Below, one piece after another: positions 9,066 through 61,038 of a stretch of DNA of 64,000 nucleotides. This stretch comes from Candidatus Peregrinibacteria bacterium RIFOXYB2_FULL_33_20 (lineage in GTDB: Bacteria > Patescibacteriota > Gracilibacteria > UBA1369 > GWF2-33-10). The notes beneath the pieces are model-generated. The model was not told the origin of the DNA. It saw only the letters and a list, made by a program, of their open reading frames with translations, and ran no database searches. The stretch spans positions 1 to 64,000 of the forward strand of contig MFXK01000010.1 of assembly GCA_001788835.1 (NCBI GenBank), read 5' to 3'. Position numbers and translations under genes: made by a program. Each line of letters begins with the position of its first letter. The first letter of the stretch is position 1.

Positions 9066-9146
9066 AATCTAATATTTATGAATTCAAATTACATGCGTAT
9101 AATAAACTCTATTTACCTTTTTGTCAATTTTTTTAGGCGTAAAAAC

Positions 9147-9684
9147 GGATCAAGCGGAAAATGGTTTGAAGAAATTTTGATTTATCGTTAGCAGTCATTC
9201 CAGATTTAGTCTGGAATCCAGTGGAGGATTAACGTCGATAGTGTGGAAATTTATAATGTCCAGAAATTTGTTAAAACAAATAATACAAATCTTTCCAGTT
9301 AGGATTCTCTTTCTCAATTAAATTTATTTTCCATTGTCTTTGCCATGTTTTAATTTGTTTCTCTTTTTCAATTGCTGATATTGAAGTATCAAATTCTTCA
9401 TACCATACTAATCTTGATATATTATATTTTGATGAAAAGCTTTTATTAATTTGTTCTTTGTGTTCATGAATTCTTCTCTCTAAATTATTTGTCATCCCTA
9501 CATATAAAGTACCATTACGTTTACTAGCAATAATATATACAAAATAAGTTTTATCCATCAATAATGAATATGTTTACTGGATACCAGCCTTCGCTGGTAT
9601 GACCTTGCGACAAATAATATCCTATATTTCTGGTCTTTTCATGAATTTTTAAAATTATTTATTCAAACTATTTTCCGCTTGACC
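9147..9684 (-). mobile_element. Mobile cassette carrying a GIY-YIG endonuclease
   Basis: The left end GGATCAAGCGGAAAATGGTT and the right end, read inward as GGTCAAGCGGAAAATAGTTT, are terminal inverted repeats over ~23 bases. The 9-base sequence CGTAAAAAC flanks the element on both sides (9138-9146 and 9685-9693), a target-site duplication. The only gene inside is the GIY-YIG protein at 9271-9558. Each side of the gene carries a palindrome (ATTCCAG/CTGGAAT near 9195-9220 and ACCAGC/GCTGGT near 9580-9600). There is no transposase, so it must move in trans or by means of its endonuclease. A second full copy lies at 60480-61038 and a remnant at 36144-36263. Confidence 0.85.
9271..9558 (-). CDS. 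Single-domain GIY-YIG endonuclease
   Basis: 95 aa. TYFVYIIASKRNGTLYVGMT holds the two halves of the GIY-YIG motif (VYI and YVG), followed by the catalytic Arg region NNLERRIHEHK and the conserved Glu region IEKEKQIKTW. The length and layout fit the UPF0213/YhbQ-like family of stand-alone GIY-YIG domains. I start at ATG 9558, because the copy at 60608 starts at the equivalent Met and the upstream codon is TTG. The two proteins differ at only 8 of 95 positions while intergenic parts differ more, so the protein is probably maintained by selection. Likely role: DNA cleavage during cassette mobility. Confidence 0.88.
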   Translation of the reverse strand: MDKTYFVYIIASKRNGTLYVGMTNNLERRIHEHKEQINKSFSSKYNISRLVWYEEFDTSISAIEKEKQIKTWQRQWKINLIEKENPNWKDLYYLF

Positions 9685-9798
9685 CGTAAAAACTCACTAA
9701 CCCTCCCAAAAAATGATATGCAAATTAAAAATTATACTGATAAATAGATAAGGAAAGAAAACATGGAACTTCAAATAGAGAATGAAAATCTTCAAATG

Positions 9799-9830
9799 TT
9801 TACTGGATTCCAGCCTTCGCTGGAATGACA
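9799..9830. repeat. Stand-alone ATTCCAGC/GCTGGAAT palindrome
   Basis: ATTCCAGC (9808-9815) and GCTGGAAT (9820-9827) flank a CTTC loop, preceded by TTTACTGG and followed by GAC. The same module lies within the GIY-YIG cassettes (TTTACTGGATACCAGC near 9580-9600) and in a relative inside pyrC (60092-60112). It forms a stable hairpin and looks like an independent palindromic repeat. Confidence 0.7.
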
Positions 9831-9842
9831 ATTGACAATTTC

Positions 9843-9864
9843 TCCCTCTCTTTAAAGAGAGGGA
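9843..9864. repeat. Perfect 22-bp palindrome
   Basis: TCCCTCTCTTTAAAGAGAGG plus GA is fully self-complementary, followed on the plus strand by TTTAGGGTGAG and then TTTTT. It sits 15 bases beyond the stop of the PKD gene at 9879. The T-run is on the wrong strand for terminating that gene, so I class it as a repeat that may also act as a terminator. Confidence 0.55.
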
Positions 9865-9878
9865 TTTAGGGTGAGTTT

Positions 9879-12086
9879 TTATTCCACCACTCCCGTTACA
9901 ACAACATTTTTAGTTGTGGAGTCGGTAATGCCATTTTGGTCTCTAACTTCTAATGTAATTTCATAATTTCCAGGTTTTGAATATGTAGCTATAGGTTTTC
10001 GGTCTCTACTTGTTTTGCCATTACCAAAATTCCATAAATAATAAGCAACAGTACCGCCGGCACATGAAGCATCAAATTGGACATCCAAAGGAGCATCGCC
10101 AATAGAGGGTGTCATGTTAAAGCAAGCTTTCAATGAGACAGGTCTAATACTGACTACAACATTAGCTTCAGATTTCGAACCATCAGATCCCACAGCAGTT
10201 ACCTTGGCAGTATAAGTGCCAACAGCATTATATGTATAGCTAATTTGACTGATGTCTATTCGTTTCGTGCCATTACCAAAATCCCATTCATAGCTAATAA
10301 TTTTGCCTTCTGGGAAACTTGATCCGGAAGCGTCAAAATTCACTTTTAACGGCACTTCTCCTTCAATCGGACTAGCAGTCAATACCGCCTCAATGCCATG
10401 AGCCTTTACTTTAACAATAATTGAAGCTTTTGATTCGTTTTTTTCACTATCAATGACTGTCAAAGTCACCTGATATTCCCCTTGTTCTTTAAAAATGTTT
10501 TTCACCACATCTCCACTATCATCAGTCACGCCATCGCCATCAAAATCCCATTTATATTCAATAATATCTTTATCTTTATCCCGACTATTAAGTCCACTGA
10601 AAGTAACACTTAATGGCGCTTCCCCTTCAATATAAGTTTGCTCTTTATCGGTAAATCCTGGAGTCGGCATGATCACAGCAATTGGTGCTGATTTCGGTTC
10701 TATAATGGTGACATCAGAACTATCATCGCCTTTTAAACCATTTTCATCAGTCACAGTCAGTTTGACGGTAAATTTACCAACATTTACAAAGCTGTGATTG
10801 GCTGTTCTGGTATTAGCTACAGAACCATCACCAAAATCCCATAAATATTTAACAATTTGAGCATCGACTGGACTGGCTGATTTGCCGGCATCAAATAAAT
10901 ATGATTTGCCTTTTTCAAATTGTCCATTATCAGAATTAATAGTAATTACCGCTTGAGGATTTTCACCAGCTTTGATCGTAATTTGCTTTTCCGCAAAACT
11001 ATAATTATCATTATTATCAGTCACCCGTAATTTAGCGGTAAAAGTACCAATTTTTTCATAAGTGTATTTAACATTTTCCCCCTCCGCATCATCAAAAAAT
11101 CCATCTTCATCTAAATCCCATTCATATTTTGCAATTGTTCCGTCAGCATCAGCAGATGATGAAGCGTCAAAAGTCACTATCAAAGGCGCTGGCCCAGATT
11201 CGGGATTAATCGTAAAACTGGTATCGGCCACTTGATTAGAAAAAACAACGTCCCGTTCAAATTTATCCTGTTTTTCTGAGCCATCTTTCAAATCTTTGTA
11301 AGTGACAGTCAAAGTGACTTTATATCGGCCAGCATTAGGCCCTTTTTCTTTATATAAATGAGTAATTTTTTGCCCAGTGCCGCTGTCACCATTATCGCCA
11401 AAATTCCACTCATAAGATAAAATTTGATATCTGGCGGGATTCACAACTTTGGCTACATTAGAAGCATCAAAACTAATTTCTAACGGAGCAGTCAAATCAA
11501 CAGTTTGTTCTGGAACTGTTAAAATAAAATTTTGTGGGTTAACGGTACTGGTTTTTCGAGAACTTAAATTAAGGTAAACAAACATCCAACTAATAACTAG
11601 TACCACAAATAATATTGCTCCGATACCAGTCATCATGCCACCTTTCAGTTTAGCCTGCTTATCATCTTTTTTGCTCATAGCAATCTTGAAAATACCAATA
11701 ATAGCAATAATAAATGAGACAAAAACCATGAAACCAAAAGCCGCACTAGTCAGATTAATTAAAAAAGGGATCCAGTCTTCAGGATTAATGCCAAAAATTT
11801 GGATAAAAGGATTAGAAGCGGCATCGGTACTTTGATTAATCAAAAAGAATAAAACCAAAAAAGCCAATACAAAAAAGCTAAATAAGCCTAATATTAACCC
11901 TATAATTAATTTTTTATTTGTTCCTGGCGGTGTTTTTTTCACTTTTAACTGAGAATTTTGTGTGTTTTGAACTTGAGGCGGTTGTTGAGTTACAGCCTGT
12001 TGTAAATTTGGAGAAATAAAATTTGTTTGTGGTTGAAAATTTTGATTTTGATTTGTTGGATTTTGTTGTTTGTTTTCTTCAGACAT
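9879..12086 (-). CDS. Membrane-anchored six-PKD-domain protein
   Basis: 735 aa. A Gln/Asn-rich cytoplasmic tail (1-55) precedes a membrane segment at ~59-82. A two-helix unit follows at ~108-172 (FGFMVFVSFIIAIIGIF, short Lys-rich loop KKDDKQAKLKGG, then GAILFVVLVISWMFVYL), resembling the VirB2/TrbC pilin-like units of the upstream genes. Residues ~195-735 form six PKD domains, each with its W-[DN]-[FL] core (WNFGDNGDSG, WDLDEDGF, WDFGDGS, WDFDGDGV, WDFGNGT, WNFGNGK). PKD domains are beta-sandwich spacers in surface proteins. It is the last gene of a four-gene minus-strand operon. I infer an envelope protein with a long extracellular stalk. Confidence 0.85.
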   Translation of the reverse strand: MSEENKQQNPTNQNQNFQPQTNFISPNLQQAVTQQPPQVQNTQNSQLKVKKTPPGTNKKLIIGLILGLFSFFVLAFLVLFFLINQSTDAASNPFIQIFGINPEDWIPFLINLTSAAFGFMVFVSFIIAIIGIFKIAMSKKDDKQAKLKGGMMTGIGAILFVVLVISWMFVYLNLSSRKTSTVNPQNFILTVPEQTVDLTAPLEISFDASNVAKVVNPARYQILSYEWNFGDNGDSGTGQKITHLYKEKGPNAGRYKVTLTVTYKDLKDGSEKQDKFERDVVFSNQVADTSFTINPESGPAPLIVTFDASSSADADGTIAKYEWDLDEDGFFDDAEGENVKYTYEKIGTFTAKLRVTDNNDNYSFAEKQITIKAGENPQAVITINSDNGQFEKGKSYLFDAGKSASPVDAQIVKYLWDFGDGSVANTRTANHSFVNVGKFTVKLTVTDENGLKGDDSSDVTIIEPKSAPIAVIMPTPGFTDKEQTYIEGEAPLSVTFSGLNSRDKDKDIIEYKWDFDGDGVTDDSGDVVKNIFKEQGEYQVTLTVIDSEKNESKASIIVKVKAHGIEAVLTASPIEGEVPLKVNFDASGSSFPEGKIISYEWDFGNGTKRIDISQISYTYNAVGTYTAKVTAVGSDGSKSEANVVVSIRPVSLKACFNMTPSIGDAPLDVQFDASCAGGTVAYYLWNFGNGKTSRDRKPIATYSKPGNYEITLEVRDQNGITDSTTKNVVVTGVVE

Positions 12087-36053: not shown

Positions 36054-36143
36054 TGGTCCCGCAAAATTAGACACGAAAAAATGAAAAATAAGATAGAATG
36101 ATTTTACAAAATAATCATTCTAAAAACATGGGAAATGGTAAAA
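36054..36143 (+). mobile_element. Left-end remnant of an IS3-like insertion sequence
   Basis: TGGTCCCGCAAAATTAGACA is of the type of IS3-family terminal repeats (TG... with GACAC). About 40 bases on, a frame begins at a hairpin (AGAATGATT/AATCATTCT) and reads MGNGKKHY, reminiscent of the start of IS3 OrfA. It is cut off by the cassette remnant at 36144. Assignment is by eye. Confidence 0.5.
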
Positions 36144-36263
36144 AACACTATCGATGTTACTCCTCTACTGGATTCCTGCCGGAGTTTACCCCAATGGAGA
36201 TGGGGGCAGGAATGACTGCTGACGATAAATTAAAATTTTTTCAAACCATTTTCTGCTTGATCC
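36144..36263 (+). mobile_element. Remnant of the GIY-YIG cassette, 3' end only
   Basis: The segment ACACTATCGA ... ACTGGATTCC ... GGAATGACTGCTGACGATAA ... CCATTTTCTGCTTGATCC matches the part downstream of the GIY-YIG gene in both full copies, including the terminal inverted repeat. The gene and other end are missing. Its terminal repeat truncates the helicase remnant on the right. Confidence 0.8.
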
Positions 36264-58977: not shown

Positions 58978-60210
58978 TTACCCAAACTCCACCTCCTTCC
59001 CCTTCCCTTCCCCAACAATCCTTCCTTCCCTCATCATCACTTCCCCTCCCCTTATCGTCATTACTGGCCAGCCTTTACAAATTCTACCAGCATACGGAGT
59101 CCAGCCACATTTTGAAACAACATTTCCATTTTTAATTTCTTTTTCTAAATTTAAATCAACTAAAACCAAATCCGCATCAAATCCTTCTTTTATTTCCCCT
59201 TTGTTTTTTATGCCAAAAATTTTAGCAGGATTATAAGACATCAATCTTACTATATCTTGCAAAGTTAATCTTCCCTTAGAAACTTCATTTAACATCAAAG
59301 GCAGTGAAAATTCAACTCCAGGAACTCCAAAAGCAGGTTTTTCAGATTCTTTTTCTGCTTTGGTATGAGGGGCATGATCTGTAGCAATAGTATCAATCGT
59401 ATAATCTTTCAATCCTTCCCAAAGTGCATTCTGATCTTCAAGACTTGCGAGTTCAGGCTTCACACAACAATATCCGCCATGTTTCTCACGATCTTCTTTA
59501 TTTAGAAATAAATGATGAGGACAAGCTTCCATAAATACTTTTTTATTTCCATTTTTTTTCAAATCTCGAACTTTATCAACTTCACGTTTCAAACTTGCAT
59601 GACATAAATAAAATTCATTACTGCTTTCTAATAAATATTTCAAAGCCAAATCAAAAGTTTCACCTTCAGCATGAAGAGCATATCTCTGTTTAACTTTAAA
59701 TAATTTTTGCAAAACTTCAGGATCAGTAATTAACAAATTTCCTGTTGTAACATTCATATAAACTTTCACTCCAGCAACATTTTTCACTTTTTTTATTTCA
59801 TCCAAATTCTCTCCATTTGTACCGAAATACAATCCAAAATCAACTAAAGACATTTTTGAAACTATTGCTCTTTTTTTCTCCAAAAGTTCATTTGTGAAAA
59901 TAGGTGGCACATTATTTGGCATATCCAAAACAGTTGTAACACCGCCCATCAATGCCGCTTTTGAACCACTTTCAAAATCCTCCTTATATTCCTGCCCAGG
60001 CGTACGGAAATGCACATGACAGTCAATAATCCCTGGCAATAAAAATTCCCCATTCCCATTTATCACTGTCATTTCTGCTTTTTTTCCTGTCATTCCTGCG
60101 GAGGCAGGAATCTTACCAATTTTCAAAACCTCCCCATCCTCAATCAAAACATCCTGTTCCTCAGAAATTTTCTCACAACTTACGATTTTTACATTTTTTA
60201 TTAAAAGCAT
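58978..60210 (-). CDS. pyrC: Dihydroorotase
   Basis: 410 aa, type I. The metal site starts PGIIDCHVHFRTPGQEYKED, and TTVLDMPNNVPPI, AGVKVYMNVTTG (site of the carboxylated Lys), CHASLKREVDKV and TDHAPHTKAEKE follow. It closes carbamoyl-aspartate to dihydroorotate in pyrimidine synthesis. Residues ~33-46 (KIPASAGMTGKKAE) are read from a palindromic repeat (60092-60112) and do not belong to the family. They lie in the N-terminal beta-sandwich before INGNGEFLLPG. The AbrB-like gene is 9 bases upstream and pyrB is on the far side of a mobile cassette. Confidence 0.94.
   Translation of the reverse strand: MLLIKNVKIVSCEKISEEQDVLIEDGEVLKIGKIPASAGMTGKKAEMTVINGNGEFLLPGIIDCHVHFRTPGQEYKEDFESGSKAALMGGVTTVLDMPNNVPPIFTNELLEKKRAIVSKMSLVDFGLYFGTNGENLDEIKKVKNVAGVKVYMNVTTGNLLITDPEVLQKLFKVKQRYALHAEGETFDLALKYLLESSNEFYLCHASLKREVDKVRDLKKNGNKKVFMEACPHHLFLNKEDREKHGGYCCVKPELASLEDQNALWEGLKDYTIDTIATDHAPHTKAEKESEKPAFGVPGVEFSLPLMLNEVSKGRLTLQDIVRLMSYNPAKIFGIKNKGEIKEGFDADLVLVDLNLEKEIKNGNVVSKCGWTPYAGRICKGWPVMTIRGGEVMMREGRIVGEGKGKEVEFG
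60092..60112. repeat. ATTCCTGC/GCAGGAAT palindrome inside pyrC
   Basis: ATTCCTGC-GGAG-GCAGGAAT is a perfect 8-bp stem-loop, preceded by GTC and followed by CTTACC. It is translated as IPASAGM. The ATTCCTGC arm also occurs at 36169. Confidence 0.8.
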
Positions 60211-60479: not shown

Positions 60480-61038
60480 GGATCAAGCGGAAAATAATTT
60501 GAATAAATAATTTTAAAAATTCATGAAAAGACCAGAAAAGTAGGATATTTTGCCTTTAGTGTGTCATTCCAGTGAAGACTGGAATCCAGTAAACATACTT
60601 ATTATTTATGGATAAAACTTATTTTATATATATTATTGCTAGTAAACGTAATGGTACTTTATATGTAGGAATGACAAATAATTTAGAAAGGAGAATTACT
60701 GAACATAAAGAACAAATTAACAAAAGCTTTTCATCAAAATATAATATATCAAGATTAGTATGGTATGAAGAATTTGATACTGCAATATCAGCAATTGAAA
60801 AAGAGAAACAAATTAAAAAATGGAAAAGAGAATGGAAAATAAATTTAATTGAGAAAGACAATCCTAACTGGAAAAATTTATATTATTTATTTTAACCAAT
60901 TCTGGATATTATAAAGTTCAACACTATCGAGGTTAGTCCTCTACTGGATACCAGCCGGAGTTTACACCAATGAAGATGGGTGCTGGTATGACGACTAACG
61001 ATAAATTATTGTTTTTTAAACCAATTTCTGCTTGATCC
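60480..61038 (+). mobile_element. Second full copy of the GIY-YIG mobile cassette
   Basis: GGATCAAGCGGAAAATAATT opens the copy and CCAATTTCTGCTTGATCC closes it, so the inverted repeats are kept. The 5' ~140 bases agree closely with the cassette at 9147-9684, and the palindromes (GTCATTCCAGTGAAGACTGG; GGATACCAGCC...GCTGGTATGAC) are present. No perfect target duplication remains (flanks ATTATTTAG and ATATTTTTT), so it is older or differently inserted. It separates the AbrB-pyrC unit from pyrB. Confidence 0.85.
60608..60895 (+). CDS. Single-domain GIY-YIG endonuclease, second copy
   Basis: 95 aa, about 92% identical to the copy at 9271-9558. TYFIYIIASKRNGTLYVGMT and NNLERRITEHKE carry the core motif and Arg, and IEKEKQIKKWKREW the Glu region. 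The start is fixed by alignment of the two copies. Changes are mostly conservative (V/I, E/D, D/N), so the reading frame appears to be kept. It is the sole gene of the cassette. Confidence 0.88.
   Translation: MDKTYFIYIIASKRNGTLYVGMTNNLERRITEHKEQINKSFSSKYNISRLVWYEEFDTAISAIEKEKQIKKWKREWKINLIEKDNPNWKNLYYLF

Follow-up and report, generated by a model that had tools for sequence, protein, structure and literature searches.

The Ssn family offers perhaps the closest parallel to the locus considered here: as the abstract of a 2025 Nature Communications article has it, its GIY-YIG enzymes reportedly cut single-stranded DNA at NTS repeats and modulate the transformation of Neisseria. The same catalytic domain occurs in group I intron and free-standing GIY-YIG homing endonucleases. 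In the RAYT/REP/REPIN systems one enzyme gene, that of a Y1 HUH transposase, lies between inverted hairpins with a conserved short leader (GTAG in REPs), and gene-less pairs of the repeat are dispersed in the genome. The MITEs of DDE transposases that leave 8-bp duplications (IS256/Mutator, IS1595, ISL3 and IS6 types) combine inverted ends starting with GG, AT-rich duplications and many internally deleted copies without a transposase. Bacteria, furthermore, commonly have unexplained dispersed repeats, among them palindromes of the GTCATTCC..GGAATC and CCCTCTCC..GGAGAGGG types.

The window, by which we mean the whole 64,000-nucleotide stretch of a Candidatus Peregrinibacteria genome analysed here, holds a nuclease-repeat module of a known kind inside an orphan transposon vehicle (Table 1). 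In the inner module a GIY-YIG gene of 95 aa lies between an inverted pair of GTCAT-stem-loop-stem-ATC hairpins, and this module presumably belongs to the Ssn/NTS-repeat kind; the outer vehicle has 24-bp ends of the form GGATCA-N9-TGGTTTGAA, an 8-bp AT-rich duplication and no transposase. This nested structure, together with the second complete copy and the truncated copy in the window, had been missed by the preliminary description. As in the Ssn family, the nuclease is small and stands alone (tblastn aligns it at 52% identity with an N. gonorrhoeae homologue that is a candidate Ssn), the catalytic-motif residues are shared, and the gene comes with many dispersed copies of a putative cognate palindromic repeat, which are also found beside it. 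Unlike in the Ssn family, the gene and hairpins ride a vehicle whose 24-bp ends are accompanied by 8-bp duplications. The resemblance to RAYT and REPIN lies in the single enzyme gene flanked by inverted hairpins with a short leader (here GTCA) and in the dispersed gene-less repeat pairs, but only a GIY-YIG gene is found between the hairpins, its fold and chemistry unrelated to those of the Y1 HUH transposase. With the DDE MITEs the vehicle shares inverted GG-starting ends, AT-rich duplications and many internally deleted copies lacking a transposase; it differs from them in its exchangeable nuclease-hairpin cargo and in that its parent transposase is a presumed one. Likeness to the homing endonucleases is in the catalytic domain, with a weak TIGR01453 match below the cut-off; the differences are that there is no intron, that 95 aa are too few to accommodate an additional DNA-binding domain, and that no homing site is seen, the gene being flanked by hairpins and transposon ends.

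We consider it quite probable that the unit is a composite, with a non-autonomous vehicle moved in trans and a GIY-YIG/hairpin cargo whose nuclease recognises the hairpins. A DDE-type transposase acting in trans would recognise the 24-bp ends, cut or copy the unit and insert it where the target has been cut with an 8-bp stagger. The GTCAT hairpins would most likely be the recognition sites of the nuclease, probably in single-stranded form, and their cutting may stimulate exchange or repair among the scattered copies, by which hairpins and gene would spread, and/or may filter incoming single-stranded DNA, as is said of the Neisseria member. To its cargo the vehicle is indifferent: some copies carry a DUF559 nuclease with hairpins of another kind, others no gene at all. 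The association of hairpin and nuclease is observed; cleavage of the hairpins and its consequences are what we infer.

Table 1. Features of the element and its relatives in the 64,000-nucleotide window
Feature	Position	Strand	Remark
Target duplication, left, 8 bp, GTAAAAAC	9139..9146	.	
Left terminal inverted repeat, type 1, GGATCAAGCGGAAAATGGTTTGAA	9147..9170	+	exact consensus, 0 mismatches
Inner-module hairpin GTCATTCCAGATTTAGTCTGGAATC	9194..9218	+	other copies have different hairpins at the same site
GIY-YIG nuclease, 95 aa	9271..9558	-	ATG start at 9558; the ORF list has an upstream TTG at 9561
Inner-module hairpin, inverted, GTCATACCAGCGAAGGCTGGTATC on the - strand	9580..9603	-	
Right terminal inverted repeat, type 1, GGGTCAAGCGGAAAATAGTTTGAA	9662..9685	-	2 mismatches
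Target duplication, right, 8 bp, GTAAAAAC	9686..9693	.	
Second complete element copy, opposite orientation	60480..61038	-	86% identical to the first; without clear target duplication
Second intact GIY-YIG gene, 95 aa	60608..60895	+	92% identical
Hairpin of the second copy, GTCATTCCAGTGAAGACTGGAATC	60563..60586	+	
46-nt hairpin of the second copy	60947..60992	-	site homologous to 9194-9218
Solitary type-1 end of a truncated copy (~36130-36263)	36240..36263	-	1 mismatch
46-nt hairpin of the truncated copy	36171..36216	-	

Boundaries, copies and spread of the outer vehicle

The preliminary description had the unit bounded by a 9-bp target duplication, CGTAAAAAC, and this 9-mer is indeed present at 9138-9146 and 9685-9693, with 31-nt arms (90% complementary) at 9145-9175 and 9657-9687. 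Comparison with the other copies gives a consensus end of GGATCAAGCGGAAAATGGTTTGAA; the element therefore occupies 9147-9685, and only the 8-mer GTAAAAAC is duplicated. The additional C belongs to the right inverted repeat as its final base; this end reads GGATCAAGC in other copies and GGGTCAAGC in this one. The duplication thus stands, one base shorter than had been claimed.

With the unit as query, BLAST gives 112 matches in its own genome (1.50 Mb in 42 contigs), many of them at contig ends, where repeats would be expected to interrupt an assembly. The family amounts to about 65 ends having no more than five mismatches to type 1 (GGATCAAGCGGAAAATGGTTTGAA) or type 2 (GGATCATCTGATTTTTGGTTTGAA), two types with their first six and last nine bases in common. 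The 9-base block in between differs (9147-9170 against C28:67564-67587), and both ends are open in one frame (GSSGKWFEEI and GSSDFWFEEI). Among 13 complete pairs of ends, the target duplication is 8/8 in five and 7/8 in two, so that 7/13 reach at least 7/8, as against 1.5% of 4,290 mismatched pairings; five pairs are without a recognisable duplication and in a sixth it is offset (7-bp AAAAAAC). The 8-bp duplications of other copies are CCAATTTA, ATTAATTT, ATTATATC and AAAAAAAT, and in a further copy (C14) CCAAAACT can be seen by eye on both sides. The vehicle family has spread by transposition with an 8-bp target duplication, and the many copies and their duplications bear out the earlier statement that the unit moved as a discrete element. 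With terminal inverted repeats and a fixed-length target duplication in many copies, it resembles in its behaviour a MITE mobilised in trans. The number of copies and their duplications attest to the movement; the transposase, and with it its type, is presumed.

Instead of transposition, recombination or a collapsed assembly could conceivably account for the outer ends and their copy number, given the many copies at contig ends and the five pairs that show no duplication, but this is hardly credible: perfect 8-bp duplications occur within long contigs at unrelated sites, and the same ends are also present in a second genus (G001). Among 98 relatives G001 alone has the vehicle ends, apart from a chance coding match (the end match in G076 lies inside a cysteinyl-tRNA-synthetase-like ORF).

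Exchangeable cargo and a presumed mobilising transposase

The vehicle is indifferent to what it carries. Type-1 ends with the perfect duplication CCAATTTA enclose a DUF559 gene remnant between palindromes of a different kind (C16:46382-46718), type-2 ends with a 7/8 duplication enclose a DUF559 nuclease (C28:67564-67981), and two vehicles are without a gene, one of them having a perfect 8-bp duplication (C27:13625-13805; the other is C2:2125-2283). Pfam assigns the gene on the C30 copy to DUF559 with E=6.6e-24. Since units with the same ends carry DUF559 or no gene, GIY-YIG is not needed for movement of the vehicle. In this genome 34 type-1 ends adjoin GTCAT hairpins, as do 6 of type 2 (these six include C34:225, in fact an end of type 1 beside one of type 2, and C22:52296, a weak end with 5 mismatches); CTCACCC hairpins are adjoined by 3 type-1 and 17 type-2 ends. 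The presence of type-2 ends beside GTCAT hairpins and of type-1 ends beside CTCACCC hairpins implies that ends and cargo have been exchanged. In this exchange between the two types of end we see how such modules can travel without a transposase of their own.

These units bear directly on the earlier proposal that the nuclease itself takes part in the movement. As the only gene of the unit, intact in two copies and under mild constraint, the GIY-YIG protein might be thought to move the whole cassette itself, cutting both terminal repeats and target. We find such a role very improbable: identical ends with perfect 8-bp duplications have moved on units without GIY-YIG, a DUF559 unit has a 7/8 duplication, and the displayed flanks of the homologues in other genomes keep the hairpins and contain no outer ends. 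To our knowledge, moreover, GIY-YIG enzymes do not make fixed 8-bp staggered target duplications.

The preliminary description had also suggested that an unseen transposase moves the cassette in trans, and this agrees with the many copies, the 8-bp duplications and a unit that has no transposase; those of IS1595, IS4, Mutator and ISL3 (PF12762, PF01609, PF00872 and PF01610), four DDE families, are all absent from the genome. Neither an autonomous element with the vehicle ends nor any other transposase with matching ends was found in the genome itself (a draft assembly), 98 relatives, GTDB contigs (searched with the type-1 pattern) or IMG/VR, and we therefore infer a transposase acting in trans. 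A draft assembly could miss its source, and the absence is not proof. The one match to the terminal-repeat pattern on GTDB contigs falls within a coding sequence from a Crocinitomicaceae MAG and is due to chance.

It is rather unlikely, although not without indications, that the vehicle was made by an insertion sequence of the Mutator/IS256 superfamily, about 1.05 kb long with GG-starting ends and 8-bp duplications. In relatives this element has perfect 8-bp duplications and is apparently intact in G012 (L142, G012:C13), and a decayed copy with the duplication AAAATTTC is present in the same family (G001:C32, L140/L141). The type-1 end resembles its ends (summed score p=0.026), but the likeness is weak and post hoc, the type-2 end is unlike them (p=0.26) and the gene is absent from the genome that carries the vehicle; as the source of the vehicle it is a weak candidate only. 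The IS1595 element of G001 was rejected as parent because its ends differ, and the IS110 element of the vehicle's own genome because it is a separate insertion into a type-2 hairpin. This IS110-family transposase (316 aa) is intact at C25 (L098 1501-2753), inserted in the loop region of the vehicle's type-2 hairpin, and the same insertion sequence begins at C27 (L086, C27:36058). The 86-aa neighbour gene of the element has no homologue in 58 relatives.

The GIY-YIG nuclease and its GTCAT hairpins

The nuclease is the sole ORF of at least 60 aa inside the unit and, as stated previously, a stand-alone GIY-YIG protein: it matches PF01541 with E=1.6e-18 (67.2 bits, against a curated cut-off of 22.6), and the catalytic-motif columns Y8, Y19, G21, R29, E66 and N85 are invariant in 22 homologues. 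Comparison of the two intact copies gives a dN/dS of 0.039/0.159, a value resting on 16 differences, which suggests mild constraint. A phage search returned two weak matches only, and Rfam and PADLOC nothing decisive. Several relatives appear to read through in-frame TGA, a trait that suggests Gracilibacteria among the candidate phyla.

In 29 other genomes of the class, homologues with 43-58% identity mostly have the same inverted hairpin arrangement, with flanking stems that differ between genomes. A strict search for the oriented hairpin finds it 5' of 15 of these 29 homologues, 3' of 19 and on both sides of 14, as compared with 12 of 606 control scans; hairpins in the wrong orientation number 1/29 and 5/29, and imperfect stems that the strict test misses are visible at most of the remaining homologues. 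Such hairpins, again with differing stems, also adjoin nuclease genes of distant genera (roughly 45-59% identical), namely those of Neisseria gonorrhoeae, Shinella, Azospirillum, Planktothrix, Aeromonas, Sinorhizobium and Sphingobium; in N. gonorrhoeae these are ATTCCCGC..GCGGGAAT repeats, and in Azospirillum the module sits between sufB and sufC. On Planktothrix agardhii plasmid p1 (L204) the GIY-YIG homologue has an MmeI-type restriction-modification gene on one side and drmA, a DISARM helicase gene, on the other. It seems likely that the internal GTCAT hairpins, and not the outer ends, are the cognate repeats of the nuclease.

Exact-form hairpins occur 97 times in the 1.5-Mb genome, versus 0 for a reversed control pattern. 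At one fixed site of the vehicle several different hairpin sequences are found in this genome, nearly all of them still folding; such variety with the pairing kept suggests that hairpins have been replaced whole and not altered base by base through point mutation. Outside complete vehicles there are eight gene-less hairpin-spacer-hairpin units, seven without an outer end and one (on C40) that keeps an end.

We regard it as entirely possible, without thinking it probable, that the hairpin-nuclease-hairpin module is the real replicator, in the manner of RAYT/REPIN, and that its presence in the vehicle is incidental hitch-hiking, a reading compatible with the vehicle part of our preferred explanation. 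The occurrence of the module without outer ends across phyla, as in Azospirillum, the gene-less paired units outside complete vehicles and the swapping of hairpin alleles at constant sites all argue in its favour. It has to contend with the lack of a clean filled/empty pair or target duplication for the module alone, and with the fact that all GIY-YIG copies seen in this genome either lie within the outer vehicle or derive from it; a host role would likewise hold gene and repeats together.

DUF559 genes and a second hairpin class

DUF559 (Vsr-like) genes lie between inverted hairpins of the CTCACCC..CCCTCTCC type at C30:5467-5898 and C28:67564-67981, on other G000 contigs and at loci L172-L200. 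In the genome under study these genes and their hairpins ride within the same vehicle; elsewhere, in numerous distant genomes, they stand alone. Pyrimidine-rich hairpins are found 5' of the DUF559 homologues in 16 of 29 genomes, 3' in 13 and on both sides in 10, and in 3/264 control windows. A limited literature search found no description of this coupling. If true, two unrelated nuclease folds would each travel with a hairpin class of their own.

More tentatively still, solitary nucleases tethered to hairpins might form a general class of minimal replicators, in which GIY-YIG with GTCAT hairpins and DUF559 (Vsr-like) with CTCACCC-CCCTC hairpins would each spread with their own abundant repeats, RAYT-like but without a transposase, and would here have one exchangeable vehicle in common. 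Each palindrome class goes with a small nuclease gene, on whose flanks it is found in many genomes, so that the origin of the repeats can be tested with one enzyme and one hairpin.

A solitary hairpin, GTCATTCCAGCGAAGGCTGGAATC, is present at 9806-9829 of the window, about 120 bp outside the element, and adjoins a CCCTCTC-type palindrome (9840-9880). A GTCAT hairpin at 60089-60112 is in frame within a dihydroorotase-like gene (58978-60210, minus strand), where it encodes IPASAGMT.
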